This document shows, piece by piece, positions 2,414 through 47,605 of a DNA stretch of 64,000 bases (positions are counted from its first letter, which is position 1; every line of letters begins with the position of its first letter). Source of the DNA: Rhizoctonia solani. Its lineage: Eukaryota; Basidiomycota; Agaricomycetes; Cantharellales; Ceratobasidiaceae. The stretch spans positions 2,709,501-2,773,500 of the forward strand of contig NC_057372.1 in NCBI RefSeq assembly GCF_016906535.1. Direction: 5' to 3'. A program made the translations under genes and the position numbers. The notes beneath the pieces are model-generated. The model was given only the letters and a program-made list of their open reading frames with translations. It did not search any database and was not told where the DNA came from.

Positions 2414-2868
2414 TGTCATGAGCCACACCCCTATTGTGCCCTCTATTCACATACCAGGGCACTCATGGTACACACTACGGTCACCGGAAACACGCATATA
2501 CTCGCACTTATGCACTCAGAACCCCCAGGTTCCCACATATAAGAGACTTATGGTTGACATGGCTGGACTTAGTGATATTCTCTAAGTCCAGGTCACATGA
2601 CCTCCCCCCCTCCAGTCCTTTATCAAATACTATACTAAACTACTACGGATTTGAGGTGGGGGGGGATGACATAATCTCTTCTATAATAATATATTATTCA
2701 GACCTTGCCCGCGGGCATTAACATTGGCCTGCGGCTAGGGGGGCTGGGGGAATGCAACGTCCCCCAGCAACTTATATTATTAATATATCACTGTGCATCA
2801 TATATACTATATATATCTTTGACAGTGGATATATATGGTAATAACCCCTCCAGATATGGGTCATGACA
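2414..2868 (+). mobile_element. 5' LTR of element E1 (LTR-E)
   Basis: A 455-bp LTR that starts TGTCATGAGCC and ends GGGTCATGACA. The same LTR flanks element E2 (41341-41809 and 47140-47605, inverted). It is followed by the same leader sequence as in E2 and by a gag gene. No 3' LTR of E1 remains in the window, so a target duplication cannot be tested. It is inserted in the family F pol. Confidence 0.82.
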
Positions 2869-4045
2869 TTGAAAACAAGCTGCTTACCTATACCCAGTAT
2901 ATATACATATATATGTGTATATGTATTGCCTATAGGGGATGTAGGGATGACTAATGCCCCTACATCAATGGTGCACAACATATTGTCCCAACAACACAAC
3001 TTCAGATTACCATTTATGGTAACTCACCTTCCTAATTAGGAAAAGACATAACTTGAAGAAGACTTTCAAGACAAATAGAGACTAAGCAACCTAGACTTAC
3101 CAAAAATGGCAATCCCCTTTCCAAATTAGGAAAGAAGATGAAATGGATGGATGACTAAGCTTAGTCAGCTGAACTCTGATGAGTCAGCAACCAGATCACA
3201 TGATCAACTCATTGATGACAAATCAAGTATGACTAAGCATGATGACAAATGCTTAGTCAGCAACCAGGTCACATGATCAACTCATGAATGACAAATCAAC
3301 TATGACCAAGCATAATGACAAATGCTTAGTCATCAAGTACTACCTGCACTGCCACAATCACATGATGATGGCTGTGCTCAATCTCCAGGAAAAACCAGGC
3401 CGGATTGGGGAGTAGGATTACCATATAAGGAAATTGGATGAGTCATACTTAAGCAGTGTTCCACATGATTATGTGCTAAAAATAGAACCAACTCTGCCAA
3501 GACCTCACCTCACCGGTGTATTTCTTAGCATCTGATTGGCTAATTGAGCACTGCCACATGGTTCTTTGACTCATACTGCTTCTTGAGGCTGTGCTACGGC
3601 TCCGAGAGGCTGTGCTCCCATTTGAAATATGTATATAGACCCAAGTGATGCCCAGGTATATATAGGGGCGGAACAAGCTGCTTAGAAAGCCAGCTTGTTT
3701 TCCCTTGTCTTACAACCTATAGGGACAAGCAGGTGCTGCTACACCTGAAAAAGAGCAACTGAGTGATTAATTTCAAATTCAACTATCAACAACTGTCAAC
3801 AAAAGGGTCTCCACTGACCCTTCTATCTGATTTGTGATAAGAAGTACTATCAGAGTCTTCTCATCACTTGGACCCTAGGTGTCCATTACTTTACTTGCAA
3901 ACAGCTAAAGACCTCTTTGTGGGTTGCGCTATTTTTGCTCTGATCAATAGAAGCTCTTTGAGTATTCTATTTGAATAAGATACTGAGGTATCATTGACTA
4001 TCAATTAAGATAGCCTTATCTTAAAGAAACACTTCTTTGAAACAC
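2869..4045 (+). promoter_or_regulatory. E1 leader with TATA box, hairpin and tandem repeats
   Basis: This non-coding leader is shared, inverted, with E2 (about 46080-47139). Three things stand out. GAAAACAAGCTG at 2871-2882 sits 2 nt inside the LTR, where a primer-binding site belongs. Two related units of about 75 bp (3178-3345) contain the motifs ATGATCAACTCAT and AAATGCTTAGTCA. A TATA box (TATATATA, 3657-3664) is followed 34 nt later by CAGCTTGTTTTC (3691-3702), the exact complement of the 2871-2882 site; this lies next to AACAAGCTG, so a hairpin can form. The likely transcription start is therefore in the leader rather than in the LTR. Confidence 0.6.
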
Positions 4046-5821
4046 ATGTCTGCCACTCCTGAACCTGACAGTGCCCCAGGGGGTGCAGATATTAGAAGAA
4101 ACCCTACTAGAACCAGTTGATCTTCAACCTTTGATGAAGGACCAGCAAGAAGGAGGGGAATCTCAGGAACCTCATCTGTAGGAACCTCTAGAGCCTCTTC
4201 TCCTACCTATACAGCAAGGGGACAATCTGTCATGCCAGGATCAATGCCTGGCTCTGAGGATGAAACTACTGTGATTGAGGATGATAGTACAGTAGAACAC
4301 CCTAGCATTGTGATTACTGACACTTCTAGCTTAGAACCCATAGTAGGACAGGATACACCTCCTACACTACCAACCACTCATATCCAACCTTCCAACAGAT
4401 CTTCTGTCACTATAGAAGACATTACTGCCCAGGAAGGGGATACCACTCTTAGGAGACACAACCTTACTGGTACCACCATAAGACAAGCCAGAACAAGAAG
4501 CACTTCCAATATGGGGTATCATGAAACAGCCCTACAGAGCATTCCTGCATCCATTACATCTAGTAGGAGAACAAGCCCTGTAGAGCTTGACCAAAGGCTG
4601 GGGGAACCAACACTGGGTCACCAGCCAGCAGCATTAATTGCACACCAACCACAACCCCAGATACCTATGCAGGGGTTACCTTTATCCAGGGCTGCTATAG
4701 CTGACTATGAGGCCAAGAACCATCAGGTGATGCCTCAAATCAGGGTAGAAGCAGCCATCAGCAGTGCCATCAATGATATCAAAGATGACATTGCCTTGAA
4801 GATGGGCCCTATCAAATACATACATGCTAATAGCTCTGAAAGTGCAGCTGCCCTGAGACAAGTGGGCAGAGATGTAGCGGACCTCAACCTACAGACCAAC
4901 TATATAAGAAGGAGCTTAGGTGAAGTCTCTGAGGAGCAAAGAGCAGCTCAAACAGCCCATAACCACCTTGTAAATCAAGTAGGGGAGCTACAAGACAAGG
5001 TGGATGCATTGCCTCAACTCTTTCAAGATGTGGAATCCAGAATAGCTACCATGGAGGAAAGACTTTTGGAAGCAATTTTGGAGGTAGACAGGAAGATAGG
5101 ACTACCTAAAGAACCAGAAACAGAAAGAACTGAGACTGAGAGCAACAGTGAGGAAGAGGATGGTGATAATCTTCACCTCTCTAGACAGAGACAGTCCTCT
5201 CCAGTCAGAAGAACCTCCATCCCAAAGGAAGCCAGACTTAAACAGCCAAATGTCTTCAATGGAAAAAGAGGTACTGAAGCTGAAACATTCATCATGAAGA
5301 TGGAAATGTATTTCAAAGAGTACCCTGGTACCTTCACTGATGAAAGAAAGATCAGGGCCACCTTAACCAATATGGGAGAGGGTGAACCAGTCAAATGGGC
5401 CAGTCCCCTGATGCAGAAACATCTCAGTGATGAACCTCATGAGTACCTGACATCATGGAATGCATTCAAAGCAGCATTCCTACTCAACTTCAGTGATCCA
5501 TCCAAAAGAGATAGGGCTATTAGGGAGATCAATAGCCTAAAACAAACTGGATCAGCACAAATTTATGCCAGTCAATTCCAAATTTTAAAGGAAGATCTTG
5601 ATTGGGATGAGAAAGCTCTCATTGACACCTTCAAAAAGGGACTCAAGATTAACCTGCAGTCAGAATTGATCCGCATGAAGATCACTACTCCTGAAATTGA
5701 CAACTACTCTTTGGAGCAAATCATTGAAGTAGCCATCAGGACTGATGACATTCTTCAACAGGCAGCTTCAATCAGGGACACTACTACACCACCTAGTATC
5801 CTAAAGAAAGGAAGGACCAAC

Positions 5822-7344
5822 TGTTATGGATATGACATTTCTTCTTTAATCTGTACTTATTTTATTAATTACACTAGTAATCTCACAGTAAATAAATGAG
5901 ATAAAGATGCGAACTAAGGTTTTCAAGGTCCCTCTATCCAATAGTGACCTTTACAAAACCTACAAAGCTCAGGAATACCCTTAATATGCAATGCCTTTTG
6001 CATATATGCTGTTTTCTCACTCATTTAAATATATATAAATTCAACTGAGTAGATAAACAGTAACAAGTAATATTTCTCTTGTTTGTAGCATTTATTATTC
6101 AAGATTCTATCTTGTGGCTACACACAGAAATATTCAGGGTCCCCCCTGTCGCATAGGCAAGTGCTCCGGCGCTTAATCAGCCCTTAAGCGCCGACGCACT
6201 AAATGCGCCTTTTCTCCATCACCCGGGCATCCCACACTGCCGAATCGCTTGCGCTTAGGTGCGCATGTTTGTGCGCTCCAGAACGCTGGGTCAAACTCCC
6301 AAAACGGACAACATTTGGCTGAGTTATGCCCCATTTACTGTAAGTACCCAATGCAGAGGTATCCTACCTTTGGGACTGTTTACTCCAAGGATGAAACACT
6401 TAGCCTTGGGACATCTAAGGACCCACACAGGTAAATACTGCCTTGGGGCAAACATTGCCTTGGGGCAAATATTAGGATCTGTTGTTTGTTTACTATGTAC
6501 CAAAGTATTGGCTCCCTCAAGTGTTTCAGTTGCCACATATACCTCCTGTACCCCCTCTTGGTATCAATCATGTATATACTTGTTTGTGCGCCTTCTCAGG
6601 GTATAAAAGGACCCTGTGAAGACGCTTCTAATGCATCCATTTATCCACTCTTATATATTGACATATACACACAAGCCTTTAACAGCTTATCTGCGCATTT
6701 ACTTTAGTGATTGACTCACTGTAAATAGCATAGGAGGTTATTCGGCGCACTAAGACCATAGGCCAGTCCCAACAGACACAGGGTAACCTATTAGTGTACT
6801 TACTGCAACCCTGTGCCCCTTGACTGTCACAGTTGTTGAGTTCAACATTGAGTATAGTGTGACAATACTGTAAGGATTGTTGTGATTGAGTGATAGTGTT
6901 TCAATCCACCATACCCCCTATATTGTAGATAGCTTTATCTACAATATCTCATAAATCCTAGATATATTTTAGGTAAACCCCATAAGTCTTAAGTCTTACT
7001 TAAGCATCTATAAGTCCTATACTTGTTAGGCAAATCCTATAAATCCTGTACATTAGTCAGGTAACCCTCTTACTTAAGGTACTATCCTAGAGACCTTAAG
7101 TATACATATCCTTAGTCACTTAGGCTTAAGTAACATTAGTCTAAGGTACTGTACATAACCAACCACCTGCACTTCATAGTTGCTAGACTATTTGTTAGGA
7201 GTTGTTATTCCTGATAATCTAGCCTATATTGTGCATATATTCTGTGCATATATTCTGATTCTTAATACTAGTTCTTAGTTATTCTCATATACATTTTGTA
7301 TATAGTAATTCTTTCTTACTCCTGTACTTACACAACTCTTAACA
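5822..7344 (+). mobile_element. LTR-A, solo, inserted in E1 gag
   Basis: A 1523-bp LTR-like element with ends TGTTATGG...CTCTTAACA and the 5-bp duplication CCAAC (5817-5821 and 7345-7349). A TATA box (TATAAAAGG, about 6602) gives the plus orientation. It contains no long reading frame. An inverted, partly deleted copy lies only 670 bp away at 8012-9361, and a diverged copy at 48120-50002. The internal region of this family is not in the window. Confidence 0.85.
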
Positions 7345-7547: not shown

Positions 7548-8011
7548 TACCAAGGGCCTCTGTAACCATGTCAGAGACTCCCCTAGAACCCTCAGAGGAT
7601 AGTGATGAAGTGTATATTATGAAAGGAACAAATGATACTCTATCCACTTACACTTCCATTGAGGGAATCATGGACCCTATTAAAACACTTATTGACTCTG
7701 GCTCTTCACAAAACTTCATGGATATTACCTTTGCTAGGAACCTCAAGATTCCTCTGATTGAGCTCCACTCCCCTAGGACAGTCATAGCCATTGATGGGAA
7801 AGAAGTAGAAGAAAAATTTGATATAAGGCCATCTTAAACCTTATCATTGAAGGAAGAACTTTCAGACAGACCTTTTATGCTATGCCACTAGGAGATACTC
7901 CACTCATCCTAGGTCTCTCCTGGCTAAGAGAAGCCAACCCTACCATCTGCTGGAGGGATTTCTCATTAAGCTACAAGGATGAGGAACCTATCAAAGGAAA
8001 ACTGGCAGAAG
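7548..8011 (+). pseudogene. E1 retropepsin (protease), truncated pol start
   Basis: This is the aspartic protease at the start of pol. The catalytic motif is intact: IDSGSSQNF at about 7690-7716. Near 7830 the frame shifts (the first frame stops at 7837) and the second half of the protease fold continues in another frame, with the typical motif PLILGLSWLREANP. The coding sequence then ends abruptly at 8011 where an inverted LTR-A copy begins. RT, RNase H and integrase of E1 are missing. Family assignment is sure; the gene is dead. Confidence 0.78.
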
Positions 8012-9361
8012 TGCAGGTGGTTGGTTATGTATAGTACCTTAGACTAATGTTACTTAAGCCTAAGTGACTAAGGGTATGTATACCTAAGGTCTCTGGGATA
8101 GTACCTTAAGTAAAAGGGTTACCTGACTAATGTACAGGATTTATAGGGTTTGCCTAATAAGTATAGGACTTATAGATGCTTAAGTAAGACTTAAGACTTA
8201 TGGGGTTTACCTAAAAGATATCTAGGATTGATGAGATATTATAGATAAAGCTATCTACAATATAGGGGGTATGGTGGATTGAAACACTATCACTCAATCA
8301 CAACAATCCTTACAGTATTGTTGCACTATACTCAATGTTGAACTCAACAACTGTGACAGTCAAGGGGCACAGGGTTGCAGTAAGTACACTAATAGGTTAC
8401 CCTGTGTCTGTTGGGACTGGCCTATGGTCTTAGTGTGCCAAATAACCTCCTATGCTATTTACAGTGAGTCAATCACTAAAGTAAATGTGCAGATAAGCTG
8501 TTAAAGGTTTGTGTGTATATGTAAATATATAAGAGTGGATAAATGGATGCATTAGAAGCGTCTTCACAGGGTCCTTTTATACCCTGAGAAGGTGCACAAA
8601 CAAGTATATACATGATTGATACCAAGAGGGGGTACAGGGGGTACATGTGGCAACTGAAACACTTGATGGAGCTGATACTTTGGTACATAGTAAACAAACA
8701 ACAGATCCTAATATTTGCCCCAAGGTAATGTTTGTTCCAAGGCAGTATTTACCTGTGTGGGTTCTTAGATGTCCCAAGGCTAAGTGTTTCATCCTTGGAG
8801 TAAATAGTCCCAAAGCTAGGAAACCACTGTACTGGGTACTTACAGTAAATAGAGCATAACTCCGTTAAATGTGGTCCGTTTTGGGAGTTTGACCCAGCGT
8901 TCTGGAGCGCACAAACATGCGCACCTAAGTGCAAGCAATTTGGCAGTGTGGGATGCCTGGGCGATGGAGAAAAGGCGCATTTATTGCGTTGGCACTTAAG
9001 CGCTGATTAAGCGCTGGAGCACTTGCCTATGCAACAGGGGGGACCCTGAAGATTTCTGTGTGTAGCCACAAGATAGAATCTTAAATAATAAATACTAAAA
9101 ACAAGAGAAATATTACTTGTTACTGTTTATCTACTCAGCTGAATTTATATATATTTAAATGAGTGAGAAAACAGCATATATGCAAAAGGCATTGCATATT
9201 GAGGGTATTCCTGAGGTTTATAGGTTTTGTGAAGGTCACTATTGGATAGAGGGACCTTGAAAACCTTAGTTCGCATCTTTATCTCATTTATTTACTGTAA
9301 GATTACTAGTGTAATTAATAAAATAAGTACAGATTAATGGAGAAATGTCATATCCATAACA
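8012..9361 (-). mobile_element. LTR-A, inverted and 3'-truncated
   Basis: A reverse-complement copy of the LTR-A at 5822-7344. Its right end (TCATATCCATAACA, 9361) is the LTR-A start. Its left end stops about 170 bp short of the LTR-A end and abuts E1 protease. No target duplication is seen, so both borders look rearranged. With 5822-7344 it forms an inverted pair with about 1.3-kb arms and a loop of under 0.9 kb. Confidence 0.8.
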
Positions 9362-9778
9362 GAGGCTGCTTAAGGCAGGGTAGACAATCTAGGCTAAGTG
9401 GTTACCAGGTAGTAAGACCCTCATACAAAATGGGGATGCAACAAGAGGTAATTAACCTGGGTGTTACCATGGTTGGTTGGCCTCCTTATATATTACAAGA
9501 CAGAACTAATTACAAATACAACATATGCAATACTGTATCAAATAAGAACCCCACTCTGCAGTTGGTCTTACTCATGCATATGTGTCACTGACGTGTCATG
9601 ATGACATCATAGGTGGAGGTGGCTACGTATGCTGTTTAAGTGCAGATGGGGATGTGGCTCAAGCGCTTAGCATATGATATAAGGGCCAATGTCACATGAT
9701 TGGAAATGTAGTCCAATCTACTTTGTTTAAATTCAAGAAAATAGGAATTAATTCCTGGGTATTTGTGTGTCTACAACA
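9362..9778 (-). mobile_element. LTR-B fragment
   Basis: Matches the inner and terminal part of LTR-B, ending in GTGTCTACAACA. The first 170 bp or so are missing where it meets the truncated LTR-A. Confidence 0.75.
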
Positions 9779-41340: not shown

Positions 41341-41809
41341 TGTCATAACCCATATCTGGAGGGGTTATTACCATATATATCCACTGTCAAAGATATATAT
41401 AGTATATATGATGCACAGTGATATATTAATAATATAAGTCGCTGGGGGACGTTGCACTCCCCCTGCCCCCCTAGCCACGGGCCAATGTTAAGGGAGCCTG
41501 CAGGCAAGGTCTGAATAATATATTATTATAGAAGAGATTATGTCATCCCCCCCCCCACCTCAAATCCGTAGTAGTTTAGTATAGTATTTGATAAAGGACT
41601 GGAGGGGGGGAGGTCATGTGACCTGGACTTAGAGAATATCACTAAGTCCAGCCATGTCAACCATAAGTCTCTTATATGTGGGAACCTGGAGGTTCCAAGT
41701 GCATATGTGCGAGTATATGCGTGCTTGCGGTCATGCTGGTGTGCAACATGAGTGTGTTGGAGGCTTGACAAGGTCAGGACTCATGGAAAGAATGGAGTGG
41801 GTCATGACA
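41341..41809 (-). repeat. 3' LTR of E2
   Basis: TGTCATAACCC...GTCATGACA. It differs from the 5' LTR at only a handful of places, mostly transitions and run-length changes, which suggests a recent insertion. Confidence 0.85.
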
Positions 41810-42162
41810 TTGCCCCCCCTTTTGCACATAGTTTAGGGGACATGAACTTGTGCCATTAGAAAAGATGTCTGGGTAGATATCTTATTAGGTGTCAAGTTCT
41901 CCTAGGTACAATTGTGCAATGAGTTGTTATGAGGTCACCTGACTTGTTCTTGGTCATGTGATCCTTGTTGGAATGTTGTTTTCTTCCTGTGGGAAAGTTC
42001 CCACACTACTGTCTTTGTAAGGTAGCTTCTCCAGTCTTCTGGAAGTTCCTGGTTAGCAACATATTTCATGGTTGCTTGGTTACTGTATGGTGCCATTTTA
42101 TTGTTCAGAAAGGATTGGTATAGTAAGTCATTTCCCTCTGACTCAGTCTCTTGGCCCCCATG

Positions 42163-42169
42163 GTATAAA
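42163..42169 (+). promoter_or_regulatory. TATA box of the Rep gene
   Basis: TATAAAG, 42 nt before the start codon at 42205, on the strand opposite to the element's own transcript. Confidence 0.5.
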
Positions 42170-42204
42170 GAAGAGGGCAGTGGGAGGTGGGATAAGTCAT
42201 CAAC

Positions 42205-43883
42205 ATGTCTCAATGCCCAACTGCCAGCGCCACTCCCTCCACAGTCTTGGATTCACAGCCTTCAGGGCTGTTGGATGCCACCCCCTATGTTTCCCAGATT
42301 GCATCTACTGTGTGGCAGAGTCAAGAGCTGCCTCTGTCACAGCTCACTCCCAGGACTCTCAAAAGAAGGTTGGATCTGGACTCCCAAGAAGAAGGAGTAA
42401 GTGGTCTTGTTTGATAGCAAAATCCTTTTACTAAAAGATAACTGTAAAGTCACAGATATCCTGCGTGCTTCCCCCCTTGTCCAGGCGTTGGTTAGCAGTG
42501 CCCAGCAACAGGGAAGACTTAGAAAATGGAGGAAGCTCCATTGTCCCATCCATGGCTCCATTGGAGTCAAGGGGATCTATTGTTCCTGCAGCCCCTGAAG
42601 GGCAGGAGGACATTGGGGTTCTTCCCCAAGAAGGAAGGCGCTTCCGTCGTAAGGGGAAGTGTTATCTTCTCACTTATGCTCGTTATGTCAAGAGTGAGGA
42701 GACAAGGGAAACCTCTTGCCATGAGGTTATAAAAGAGTAAGTAGTTATACCCAGGATGTTTTTACTTTTACTGAGGATTATTCAAGTCTTGTAGATCATC
42801 TTCTTACTCTGAGGAGTGGGGAAAATTCCCTTTTGGAGTATGCCATGGGAGTCACTGAGTCCCATGACCTGAGGGAAGGTGAATGGCAGCCTGATTGGCA
42901 TTGCCATGTTATTGTTTGGGCCAGGACCCTCATCTCATCAGAGGCCCTGAACCTATGGAAGCATAAGGGAGTGCGCCCTCATGAGCGTCTTCTTGTACTT
43001 AGGGATGATAAGGGAAGGTTTGCCCCTTTATCAGCCTATGAGTATCTCAAGAAGGAGGCAGATGCCTGGGAGGCAAGATATGGGACCCTTACAGAGGAGT
43101 TCCTATTGGGTCAATGCCCTGCAGGGTTGAAGGCCAAGACCAATGTAAGTTCCAAGATATGGAGTGAAATTACTTGCTAATAGTCTTCCTTTCACAGCGC
43201 AATGAGGACTTTGCCTATGCAATGGAGGCAGAGGATGCAGAGGGTTTCTTTGGTCGCTTAAAGGAGCGCCAACCTTGTGATATGGCCATGGGGTATAACA
43301 ACCTCAAGGCCTTTACTGGTTACTTCTACAGGGATAAGGGCGCCCTTCCTCAGGGTGTATGTGAGCCCAAGGCCCTTAAGAAGTGAGTCTCCTTCTTTTC
43401 TATGGTAGAAGGGAGTATTGACATGTTGTTACCAGGGCTACAGTCAATTTGCCACCTGGTGTTCAGGAGTGGGTTACCTCCAATATACTGGAGCGTGACC
43501 CTGAATCTGATTGTGGTAAGATCCTTGTTCTGTGGGGTCCCTCAGAGACAGGGAAGTCAGCCCTTGCTTGTTCTTGGGGCCACCACATTAGGTTCAGGCA
43601 GAACCTTAACTCTGATGAGTTTAGTGACCATCCTATGGTTCAGTATGCAGTGCTGGATGATATGGATTGGTCCAAGGTTCCTTTGAAGATGTGGGTGCAG
43701 GAAGATTTCAATTTCCGCACTAGTTACAGATCAGAGCGCCATTGCCAATGGGGGCGCTCTACTGTTATTTGTTCCAATTCTAAGCCTTCTGTATTTGCTG
43801 ATTGTAGTTATGCTACAGTTGATGGCAAGAATTGGATAGACACCAATTGCACCTTTGTGTATATTGGTGATAAGTTGTATTAG
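42205..43883 (+). CDS. rep: Rep protein, geminivirus/CRESS-DNA type, five exons
   Basis: Exons 42205-42396, 42456-42736, 42787-43144, 43198-43382 and 43436-43883 join in phase to 487 codons with no stop; the four introns are 50-59 nt with GT-AG ends. The HUH endonuclease motifs are all there: motif I LLTYARY, motif II WHCHVIVW (His-x-His) and motif III YLKKEAD (Tyr-x-x-Lys). The SF3 helicase part has Walker A GPSETGKSAL, Walker B VLDDMDW and motif C STVICSN. Rep proteins nick the origin and drive rolling-circle replication of small ssDNA genomes. The gene has its own TATA box and poly(A) signal and lies antisense within E2, so its introns would not be lost on retrotransposition. A virus-derived cargo gene is the best reading; no stem-loop origin was identified. 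Confidence 0.85.
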
Positions 43884-43939
43884 ATAGTTCCCTTCCTGTT
43901 TTTGTTTTTTCTTGCTTTGTATGTTTTGGTCCCTGTCTC

Positions 43940-43945
43940 AATAAA
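43940..43945 (+). terminator. Poly(A) signal of the Rep gene
   Basis: AATAAA, 57 nt after the Rep stop codon. Confidence 0.45.
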
Positions 43946-44097
43946 AGCGTCTTTTCTTTTCCTCCATTTGGCACTTAGAGATAAAATGATTCTTGAGCAA
44001 TCAGATAAGACAGATGGTTACTAAGAAGGAGCAAACATTGGAAGAAAAGGAAGAAGAGAAGGATGTAAGGTTATTGGATGGAATGTTACATATTTCA

Positions 44098-45797
44098 TCA
44101 CATTCCATCAGCATAATCCAAGGGATTCCATTTGTTCATGGCCTTGTTACTTTCAAGGTCAGACTCATGTCCTCCTTCATCACTTAGTTCATGGATTGCT
44201 AAGTTGGATATACTTCTGCTCAGATCATTCTGAGCTGCTTGCATGGCCCATTGTTTGAGCCAGTCATGTAGATCCTCTATGCTCATTTTGCGTTCTAGGA
44301 TCATGTAATAGACATCCTCAGGAGTGAGGTTGTCCACATAGCCACCTAAGCCTGATGGCAGTTTGTTTTTCCAGTTTTCAATTTCTGCAGCCAGCCATTC
44401 CCTTACTGTTGAGATTGGTATCCACCATTCAGGATCAATTTCCTCAATGTCTAGATGCCACTCTGCCAACTTCCTTGTGTGCTTTAGCACTGGGGCCCTC
44501 ACTACATCCTCCACAGAGGCACCCACATTACCTCTACACACAAAGAACTTGGTACTTTGCATTAGTTTGGGTTGTTTTGGTGGCTCACTGCCAACCCAGC
44601 GGAGGTATCCCCTGATTGGACAGCGTAGGGTTCTTCCAATCCAGTAGCATTTCCATTGTTGACCCATTGGTATGTAATCAAGGGTTGCTGAGGGATCAAG
44701 TAGTTTGGCATAAGCCTTGGATTGTTGGAAGGAGTCACATCTTGTGATGACCTTATGCCAGTCATAGATGTTGGTGATAGGGGGTTGATCATTCCCCATG
44801 TCCCAGCCCATGGATGGATCTGGGGGTGCCCATTGATCCAGGTTGTCCTGGGACCAAGGGAACTTGGTCCTGTGCTCACTGGATCTATCAAGGTGGTAAG
44901 AGGTGGCATCTCCAGTGGCCTTGGAGATCCTGGTCTCTGTTCTGATGGCAGGCATGATGTTCTAGTAATGGGGATAGATAAGAAGGTAGTGGTGCCAGTG
45001 GTGGTTTGAGATGACTTCCCAGGCATGGGATGCCTTCCTTTATACCCTGGGTTGCCAGGGCCCTTATCTTTCCGCTTGTCAGACCCTTTATTGCCCTTTG
45101 CCCTAGGGTCACGTGATTTCCTATGTTCTTCAGTAGAGTGGTTTGTTCTCCCACACACCTCACATTGGATTTCAGTAGACCCTGATTTATCAGAATTGGA
45201 TTCACTGTTGTTCTCAGCCTCCCAGAGGGAAGACAAGGGAAGTATTTTATCCAATTCATCAATCACTTCCTGAGAAATGCCTCAATCCAGCATTTCCTGT
45301 TCCATCTTTAGATGGTTGTCAATATGTTTCTCCAACCTTTTGACTCCCATTACTAGTTCCATTAAGAATCCATAGACCTTTTGGGTACTTGTAAGGTGGT
45401 CATTAGTAATCCGTTTCCTGTTTGCCTCAGTTTTTGGTGGTTGAGTTTCCTCAGGGAATTTGGCAAAGAAGTCTTCAATAAAATCCTTCACTGTCTTATT
45501 CCTGGTTGCCTCATCTACCAAAGGGGTTTCCTTTTCCCTGGTGGCAGGGTCCTCCAAGGGTGTGTTATTCCCTGGATTCTCATGCCTAGGGTCTAGGATC
45601 CTAGCTGTGGCAAGTTGAAATGATTCCATATCCGGTTGGTCAGCCTGTTTAGAAGGGGTAATTCCTACTCCTTCCTGATGTCCCTGTTCCATGCCTTGCA
45701 TAGGAGATGTCAGCTCCATGACATGATCATGTTCAGGGTTATCCAATTGGGGCAAAGTCCCAAATACACGCCTAGGTTGCATCTTATGAATTCCCAT
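44098..45797 (-). pseudogene. E2 gag-like protein of unknown family, with a stop and a frameshift
   Basis: Minus-strand reading frame in the place of gag. The likely start is ATG 45797 (MGIHKMQPRRVFG). A single TGA near 45280 separates it from the next block (45266 onward), which is otherwise in frame and holds a Cys/His motif CEVCGRTNHSTEEH, a CCHC knuckle with the last Cys replaced by His, followed by a basic stretch. Near 44955 the reading continues in another frame to 44098 with a well-formed domain (YDWHKVITRCDSFQ ... WLAAEIENWKN ... MSIEDLHDWLKQWA). I do not recognise that domain. The order of N-terminal helices, zinc knuckle and basic region suggests an RNA-binding gag; a virus coat protein is the less likely alternative. 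The stop may be a sequencing or decay change. Confidence 0.5.
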
Positions 45798-45874
45798 ATT
45801 GTTGCAAAAGGCCAAATAGAGCACTATAATAGTCTCTATTACTTGCAAGTTCCAAGATATACCTATCTTAGTCA

Positions 45875-46080
45875 GTAAGAAGCCAAATAGCGCAACCCAC
45901 AAAGGAAGTCTTTAGCTATTTGCAAGAAGAAGACAAGAAGTCTCAGTTAGTAAGAAGCAAAATAGCGCAACCCACAAAGGAAGTCTTTAGCTATTTGCAA
46001 GTAGAAGACAAGAAGTCTTAGTTAGCAAGAGGCAAAATAGTGCAACCCACAGAGGAAGTCTTTAGCTATTTGCAAGTAAA
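45875..46080. repeat. 75-bp tandem repeat upstream of the E2 gag-like gene
   Basis: Nearly three copies with a period of exactly 75 bp (GCGCAACCCAC at 45890, 45965 and, with one change, 46040). E1 has a single equivalent at about 3895-3935. The array lies in the 5' leader just before the start codon. Confidence 0.8.
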
Positions 46081-47139
46081 GCAGTGGACACCTAGGGTCC
46101 TAGTGATGAGAAGACTCTGACAGTACTTCTTATCACTAATCAGAAAGAAGGATCAGTGGAGATCCTTTGTTGACAGTTGTTGATAGTTGAATTTCAAATA
46201 AATCACGCAGTTGCTCTTTTTGAGGTGTAGCAACACCTGCTTGTCCCTATAGGTTGTAAGACAAGGGAAAACAAGCTGGCTTTCTAAGCAGCTTGTTCCG
46301 CCCCTATATATACCTGGGCATCACTTGGGTCTATATACATATTTCAAATGGGAGCACAGCCTCTCGGAGCCGTAGCACAGCCTCAAGAAGCAGTATGAGT
46401 CAAAGAACCATGTGGCAGTGCTCAATTAGCCAATCAAATGCCAAGAAATACACTGGTGAGGTGAGGTCTTGGCTGAGTTGGTTCTATTTTTAGCACATGA
46501 TCACGTGGAACACCGCTTAAGTATGACTCATACTCTTGGCATGCACAGCCACAATATAAGTATGACTCATCCAATTTCCATATATGGCAATCCTATTCCC
46601 CAATCCGGCCCAGTTTTACCCAGAGATCAAGCACAGCCATCATCATGTGATTGTGGCAGTGCAGGTAGTACTTGATGACTAAGCATTTGTCATTATGCTT
46701 GGTCATAGTTGATTTGTCATTCATGAGTTGATCATGTGACCTGGTTGCTGACTAAGCATTTGTCATCATGCTTAGTCATACTTGATTTGTCATCAATGAG
46801 TTGATCATGTGATCTGGTTGCTGCCTCATCAGAGTTCAGCTGACTAAGCTTAGTCATCCATCCATTTCATCTTCTTTCCTAATTTGGAAAGGGGATTGCC
46901 ATTTTTGGTAAGTCTAGGTTGCTTAGTCTCTATTTGTCTTGAAAGTCTTCTTCAAGTTATGTCTTTTCCTAATTAGGAAGGTGAGTTACCATAAATGGTA
47001 ATCTGACGTTGTGTTGTTGGGACAATATGTTGTGCATCAGTGATGTAGGGGCATTAGTCATCCCTACATCCCCTATAGGCAATACATATACACATATATG
47101 TATATATATACTGGGTATAGGTAAGCAGCTTGTTTTCAA
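46081..47139 (-). promoter_or_regulatory. E2 leader with TATA box and self-complementary sites
   Basis: Inverse of the E1 leader. TATATATA at 46312-46305 (minus) is followed 34 nt later by CAGCTTGTTTTC (46278-46267). Its complement GAAAACAAGCTG lies 2 nt inside the 5' LTR (47137-47126). Tandem ATGATCAACTCAT-type units are at about 46670-46850. Confidence 0.6.
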
Positions 47140-47605
47140 TGTCATAACCCATATCTGGAGGGGTTATTACCATATATATCCACTGTCAAAGATATATAGT
47201 ATATATGATGCACAGTGATATATCAATAATATAAGTCGCTGGGGGACGTTGCACTCCCCCCGCCCCCCTAGCCGCGGGCCAATGTTAAGGGAGCCTGCAG
47301 GCAAGGTCTAAATAATATATTATTATAGAAGAGATTATGTCATCCCCCCCCCACCTCAAATCCGTAGTAGTTTAGTATAGTATTTGATAAAGGACTGGAG
47401 GGGGGGAGGTCATGTGACCTGGACTTAGAGAATATCACTAAGTCCAGCCATGTCAACCATAAGTCTCTTATATGTGGGAACCTGGAGGTTCCAAGTGCAT
47501 ATGTGCGAGTATATGCGTGCTTGCGGTCATGTTGGTGTGCAACATGAGTGTGTTGGAGGCTTGACAAGGTCAGGACTCATGGAAAGAATGGAGTGGGTCA
47601 TGACA
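47140..47605 (-). repeat. 5' LTR of E2
   Basis: 466-bp LTR-E. It is followed by unrelated sequence and not by the interrupted B2 pol. Confidence 0.85.

Follow-up and report, generated by a model that had tools for sequence, protein, structure and literature searches.

How does a replication gene of geminivirus type come to lie inside a retrotransposon, and is it a working part of that element or merely carried along? This question is raised by a 64,000-nt stretch of the Rhizoctonia solani genome (contig NC_057372.1, positions 2,709,501 to 2,773,500; "the window" denotes this whole stretch), in which a five-exon Rep gene at 42205-43883 (plus strand) is located within a long terminal repeat (LTR) element spanning 41341-47605. 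An earlier note on the window, made from its letters alone, had drawn attention to this gene as spliced, intact and apparently selected. Here, we compare the element with its relatives throughout the genome. Our reading, which we regard as very probable, is that the Rep element is non-autonomous, that it is moved by a helper and that its Rep is under selection.

Rep moves with the LTR element

The two LTRs that flank Rep, already recognised in the earlier note, are oriented on the minus strand, with the 3' LTR at 41341-41809 (469 nt) and the 5' LTR at 47140-47605. Both have TG..CA ends, and the pair is 98.3% identical, with 5 of 466 sites different and 3 gap columns (termini TGTCATAACC...GGTCATGACA). 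In the surveyed genome (40.7 Mb, 16 contigs), a search with Rep exon 5 returned 23 matching places, two of which belong to one locus, resulting in 22 loci including the window. Rep was accompanied by the LTR and/or ORF1 (open reading frame 1, the second gene of the element) of this family, arranged in the same order, in 19 of the 21 loci that were fetched, that is, in 20 of 22 when the window is counted, although several of these 20 are incomplete or broken up by other insertions. A search with Rep exon 3 gave 24 matches, every one of them at the already known Rep loci. The lead on the Rep side of the element (41810-42204) had at least 24 matches in the genome, at least 18 of which were at Rep loci, while the leader had at least 51, many of them away from Rep.

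Eight copies possess two LTRs. The LTR pairs of seven of them differ at only 2-5 of 444-469 sites, and that of the remaining copy, L024, at 33 of 465 sites. Exact 5-bp target duplications surround four of the eight copies (L013, L014, L015 and L022); in L018 and L021 the duplications agree in 4 of 5 bases, and in L024 there is none, nor is there one at the window copy (see below). As four copies have their own exact target duplications, Rep moves together with the LTR element as one unit. Independent viral insertions with random borders were considered and rejected, because 20 of 22 Rep loci hold parts of the same element. The proposal that Rep travels in an LTR element is therefore borne out, and the arrangement named in the earlier note as speaking against it, Rep copies with random borders and no LTRs around them, was not encountered.

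The two loci outside the element family, L027 (6001-6647, minus strand) and L028 (3270-3916, plus strand), both contain one and the same stop-bearing Rep fragment of 650 bp. It is surrounded by gypsy-type sequences, an assignment based on inspection by eye and on similarity to the gypsy stretches in the window. Since L027 and L028 are 98.6% identical over 5.95 kb, they represent one event and a single arrangement. The inverted pair L011/L012, with zero synonymous difference in Rep, may also be one event. A Tc1/mariner-like transposase ORF was recognised by eye in L028 (7008-8042, minus strand). Furthermore, the window contains a 1.36-kb repeat in two inverted copies that are 95% identical (5821-7175 and 8008-9362), and a relative of this repeat adjoins the Rep fragment of both L027 and L028.

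The element and its autonomous chromovirus relative

A non-autonomous LTR retrotransposon has its termini and its leader in common with an autonomous partner. Locus L033 is an intact Ty3/gypsy chromovirus whose two LTRs show no difference over 460 nt. Its gag ORF encodes 675 aa and its pol ORF 1134 aa, the latter with matches to reverse transcriptase (RT), RNase H, integrase and chromodomain. L033 is 94.2% identical to the window element over 414 LTR columns and 95.7% identical over 1111 leader columns (about 1.1 kb); the LTRs do not match in some 55 nt at their U3 end. The polypurine tract of the window element (41810-41825, minus strand, with the minus-strand reading GCAAAAGGGGGGGCAA) is the same as the tract preceding the 3' LTR of L033, and the primer site is one base apart. 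This site is situated at the 5' end of the leader (45912-47139, minus strand), which is mostly common to the autonomous element and contains tandem repeats. In the leader region, a unit of 75 nt occurs three times at 45866-46090 and one of 73 nt twice at 46672-46817. The window also harbours a truncated autonomous relative (2460-5820, plus strand), which has the LTR and leader in common with the Rep element and carries a Ty3/gypsy gag ORF from 4121 (PF03732, 53.7 bits). L031, another candidate for an autonomous copy, was dismissed, as, of the parts searched, it matched just the LTR.

No pol-like ORF was found in the ORF list for 41810-47139, and the scanned ORF1 and Rep pieces gave no RT match. 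Because no RT was found, and because LTR, primer site, leader and polypurine tract are common to an intact chromovirus, the Rep element is, by its sequence, a non-autonomous derivative of a Ty3/gypsy chromovirus. In these features it resembles other non-autonomous LTR retrotransposons, from which it is set apart by its cargo, a Rep of virus type together with an unrelated sense gene. The polypurine tract, primer site and leader that it has in common with L033 also fix the orientation: the sense strand of the element is the minus strand and Rep lies antisense to it, as the earlier note had stated.

Structure and motifs of the Rep gene

All five exons of Rep are on the plus strand. Exon 1 (42205-42396) begins with MSQC, a start that is the same in the AG-8 relative P0022. 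Exon 2 (42450-42736) contains HUH motif I, exon 3 (42787-43144) HUH motifs II and III, exon 4 (43198-43382) is a linker in the central-domain region of geminivirus Rep, and exon 5 (43436-43883) comprises the superfamily 3 (SF3) helicase motifs and the stop codon. With a total of 1470 nt, the exons, joined in phase, give 489 codons plus stop; the five in-phase exons without a stop thus stand as first described, while the previous count of 487 codons has to be corrected. The exon 1/2 junction matches gene model P0024 and the exon 2/3 junction gene model P0020, both from another R. solani assembly, and similar sequence in P0022 spans the second junction as well. The junctions between exons 3, 4 and 5 are ordinary GT-AG sites. 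For introns 1 and 2 of the window copy, in-phase joining needs AAG acceptors at 42449 and 42786, and the nearest strong YAG sites fall out of phase. Across 17 aligned copies, the acceptor of intron 1 is TAG in 10 and AAG, at the same position, in 7; that of intron 2 is TAG or CAG in 8 and AAG in 9.

A TATA box (42164-42169, plus strand) lies about 40 nt ahead of the ATG and reads TATAAA in 14 of 15 aligned copies. The poly(A) signal AATAAA (43940-43945, plus strand) is likewise present in 14 of 15 and is retained even though its 150-nt stretch diverges by 13-24% in 11 of 16 pairs.

The three HUH motifs and the Walker A, Walker B and C motifs of the helicase were each located in the exons, in agreement with the earlier note: HUH motif I is KCYLLTYA (42657-42680), motif II WHCHVIVW (42896-42919) and motif III YEYLKKEA (43037-43060), while Walker A is WGPSETGKSA (43533-43562), Walker B AVLDDMDW (43647-43670) and motif C VICSNSKP (43764-43787). 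HUH motifs I and II are present in all 17 copies; motif III is present in 15, with a Lys change in 2 of these, and deleted in the other 2. Walker B is identical throughout, GKS of Walker A is found in 17/17 copies (with a change beside it in 3), and motif C shows one change in 2 of 17. Domain profiles gave a less uniform picture. The central domain PF08283 was detected in the relative P0007 (25.8 bits, cut-off 24), window exon 5 alone reached 13.9 bits, and exon 4 alone had no Pfam match. The catalytic domain PF00799 was not matched in the exon pieces, which split the domain, or in the gene models; the source record of P0020 carries the name 'Geminivirus Rep catalytic domain'. A PF08283 profile search of the whole genome returned no match, but its controls gave none either. 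NCBIfam provided no useful match, a sequence search of solved structures no convincing one (adeno-associated virus Rep40 at E 0.6 is at noise level), and scans of IMG/VR with Rep and ORF1 queries confirmed no viral relative.

Selection on Rep

Selection was analysed in 17 copies, namely the window and 16 loci (L016 and L027-L030 were left out as partial). The ratio of non-synonymous to synonymous substitution rates (dN/dS) over these copies was 0.165, with values of 0.29, 0.46, 0.12, 0.06 and 0.11 for exons 1 to 5, and mean intron distances were 0.08-0.26 compared to a mean synonymous distance of 0.19. In the frame controls, dN/dS was 0.16 in the Rep frame. Four other frames yielded 1.06, 1.34, 1.04 and 1.35, and 0.31 was obtained for the antisense frame, which has its wobble positions in common with Rep. 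The fraction of stops was 0.0004 in the Rep frame and 0.023-0.076 in other frames. These controls rule out chance ORFs. Moreover, when ten pairs were examined by halves, the eight older pairs showed dN/dS values of 0.05-0.45, with P for neutrality ranging from 0.08 down to 4e-14. The earlier impression of a selected gene agrees with the values obtained between copies and with the frame controls, and the Rep sequences bear, to judge from their substitution pattern, the mark of purifying selection.

Not all copies conform to this pattern. Eight of 17 are free of stops and indels (relative to the window) in every exon, and the other nine have a stop or indel in some exon. In addition, two very recent pairs look neutral (e.g. 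L018/L022 with dN/dS of 2.1 and 0.65), as expected for copies decaying after insertion. Damaged copies and neutral recent pairs would both fit a Rep that was recently captured and is a neutral passenger. This explanation is extremely improbable, as it is contradicted by dN/dS over the copies, by the pairwise tests and by the frame controls (0.16 versus 1.04-1.35); nearly all copies also retain the motifs, and synonymous divergence reaches values that a recent capture does not suggest (up to 0.47).

Proteins related to Rep are on record for R. solani AG-3 and AG-8, in further R. solani entries and for Ceratobasidium sp. 423, with an exon 3 identity of 70% to AG-8 and 68% to Ceratobasidium. Such a distribution over AG-3, AG-8 and Ceratobasidium, together with purifying selection, could indicate that Rep benefits the host, for instance by interference with single-stranded DNA mycoviruses, and that the element is only its carrier. 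We consider this unlikely, given that the sole Rep matches outside the element family are the broken fragments of L027 and L028 and that recent copies look neutral.

Exchange of Rep modules between copies

The window and 14 loci were aligned and 13 pairs tested for mosaic structure (L016, L019, L020 and L027-L030 were not included). Window and L014 are 1.8% divergent except in 42410-43077, which covers the nuclease module and diverges by 17%. Between window and L018, the stretch 43103-44077, comprising the helicase module and the tail-to-tail spacer, is 10% divergent, compared to 1.8% elsewhere. Pairs with the older copies L010, L012, L024 and L025 have further divergent tracts in leader, LTR or lead, and the mosaic pattern is therefore sharp only among recent copies. 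Synonymous divergence in ORF1 was 0.006-0.12 in the pairs compared, whereas in Rep it goes up to 0.47, which indicates that deep Rep lineages were shuffled into near-identical backbones. According to these alignments, Rep nuclease and helicase modules are exchanged between near-identical elements. The shuffling spoils a simple clock.

The sharp exchange tracts in the pairs window/L014 and window/L018 could also be the trace of a selfish cassette, i.e. of Rep modules that spread among element copies by nuclease-driven gene conversion. Homing of this kind should homogenise Rep, yet deep Rep lineages persist. Template switching in reverse transcription yields mosaics as well, and the older-copy pairs diverge not only in Rep but also in leader or LTR. 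Taken with these points, a selfish cassette appears very unlikely.

The sense gene ORF1 and hairpins of the element

The earlier note had not described a second gene. ORF1 (45782 to 44098, minus strand) lies in sense orientation and is read in two frames: an N-terminal frame from MQPRR (44562-45782, minus strand), which has a CX2CX4HX4H motif, and a C-terminal exon frame of 287 aa (44098-44961, minus strand), for which 11 related proteins were found, 10 of them named R. solani. The CX2CX4HX4H motif is spliced out in some public gene models and retained in others. A 449-aa open frame of ORF1 occurs at 6 of 28 genome matches. No Pfam family scored above cut-off for ORF1, and an ordinary gag was rejected, as neither the window pieces nor the relatives P0010, P0013 and P0017 matched a retroelement family. 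The relatives P0011 and P0012 are publicly named 'Vegetative incompatibility protein HET-E-1', a name without support in this analysis. In another R. solani assembly, the Rep relative P0020 and the ORF1 relative P0013 are on contigs that are both 275560 in size, a hint that Rep relatives elsewhere may lie in LTR elements as well.

Between the tail-to-tail genes lies a hairpin with a perfect 10-bp stem and a 13-nt loop (44077-44109); of the 15 copies aligned, 14 have it, some of them in slightly altered form. The LTRs contain a hairpin of their own with a 10-bp stem and a 9-nt loop (41623-41651 and 47419-47447). It is kept with few changes at most in all 27 aligned LTRs, including those of the autonomous element.

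Proposed life cycle and possible roles of Rep

In about 20 elements, sense ORF1 and antisense five-exon Rep, arranged tail to tail, take the place of the gag-pol region of a Ty3/gypsy chromovirus. We propose that these non-autonomous elements are moved by a helper. The shared position of Rep suggests that it was already in the element before the copies spread. Gag, RT and integrase would be supplied in trans by an autonomous chromovirus. As the element RNA would be antisense to Rep, the Rep introns would not be spliced from it and could persist through the RNA stage in each round; this survival through antisense position agrees with the polypurine tract, primer site and leader that the element has in common with L033. 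Rep would be made from integrated copies by host RNA polymerase II, using its own promoter, and most likely acts on element DNA. It may, for instance, nick and unwind extrachromosomal circles of the element to make more template, although we hold this step to be less likely than not. The wider scheme of a hybrid element, in which reverse transcription would be combined with Rep-driven rolling-circle amplification of DNA circles and with swapping of Rep modules between copies, seems rather doubtful.

Besides the damaged copies and the neutral recent pairs, several observations weigh against the proposed reading. Known origin motifs of Rep type are NANTATTAC and TAWWDHWAN. The former is absent from the window element, and matches to the latter have stems of at most 4 bp, which is no better than in shuffled sequences. 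The LTR hairpin was rejected as a Rep origin, as it is unspecific and also present in the Rep-less autonomous element. The subfamily of the window has AAG ends in Rep introns 1 and 2, and window ORF1 contains an in-frame stop at 45282-45284. Part of the selection on Rep could predate the present backbones, since divergence among Rep alleles far exceeds that of ORF1 from the same copies. Finally, there is no target duplication around the window copy (41341 / 47606). Its left flank consists of gypsy pol and its right flank of other repeats, which suggests recombination between elements behind the missing duplication.

An origin would not be required if Rep were an antisense accessory gene that regulates or stabilises the element, be it by DNA binding or via host factors or the cell cycle, without replicating it; none was found in the window element. 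The layout would be comparable to that of the plant Retand and Grande elements, in which an antisense gene directly precedes the 3' LTR (PMC11963269). However, in the description cited the antisense ORFs of Retand are mostly TRP28 and not Rep (PMC11963269), and the retention of both nuclease and helicase motifs goes beyond the need of DNA binding alone. An accessory function is thus conceivable, but we would not expect it.

Comparison with known systems and significance

Helitrons combine HUH and a PIF1-type helicase and make no target duplication. A Helitron is consequently ruled out here by the SF3 motifs and the 5-bp duplications. Compared to the Rep of circular Rep-encoding single-stranded (CRESS) DNA viruses of the gemini-/genomovirus type, the window Rep shares HUH motifs I-III, Walker A, Walker B and motif C, with PF08283 detected in the relative P0007, but differs in its four introns, its 489 codons, the undetected PF00799 and its position in a retroelement.

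Rep genes of single-stranded DNA viruses are already known in fungal genomes (PMC3198968), as is gene capture by LTR elements (PMC5408684). The geminivirus-like transposon of Tuber melanosporum is described as having terminal inverted repeats of 37 bp and two transposase ORFs; its Rep ORF is interrupted, and target duplications are not obvious (PMC3198968). Both it and the R. solani element are multi-copy fungal mobile elements with a geminivirus-type Rep; the latter is distinguished by LTRs, 5-bp duplications, a retrotransposon leader and a spliced Rep that appears to be under selection. A transposon of the Tuber type was rejected for the window, which has LTRs with TG..CA ends instead of terminal inverted repeats, with no transposase match in the pieces scanned. 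With Retand, the element shares the family-wide presence of an antisense gene that is placed between sense genes and 3' LTR, but in Retand, as described, gag-pol is often kept and the antisense ORFs are mostly TRP28, whereas in R. solani the antisense gene is Rep and gag-pol is gone (PMC11963269). Similarly, LTR elements of bdelloid rotifers have captured foreign enzyme or viral genes, but these are env-like, esterase and exonuclease ORFs besides gag and pol, and the abstract of that report names no Rep (PMC5408684). Among the matches listed from open-licence literature, no title or beginning of an abstract named a Rep in an LTR element.

In R. solani, a complete, spliced Rep with signs of purifying selection belongs to the regular equipment of a family of retrotransposons. 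Two replication strategies, reverse transcription and DNA replication of HUH type, would thereby be joined in one unit. This makes it possible to test whether rolling-circle replication may occur in a retroelement, and how an intron-bearing gene persists through an RNA stage by virtue of its antisense position.
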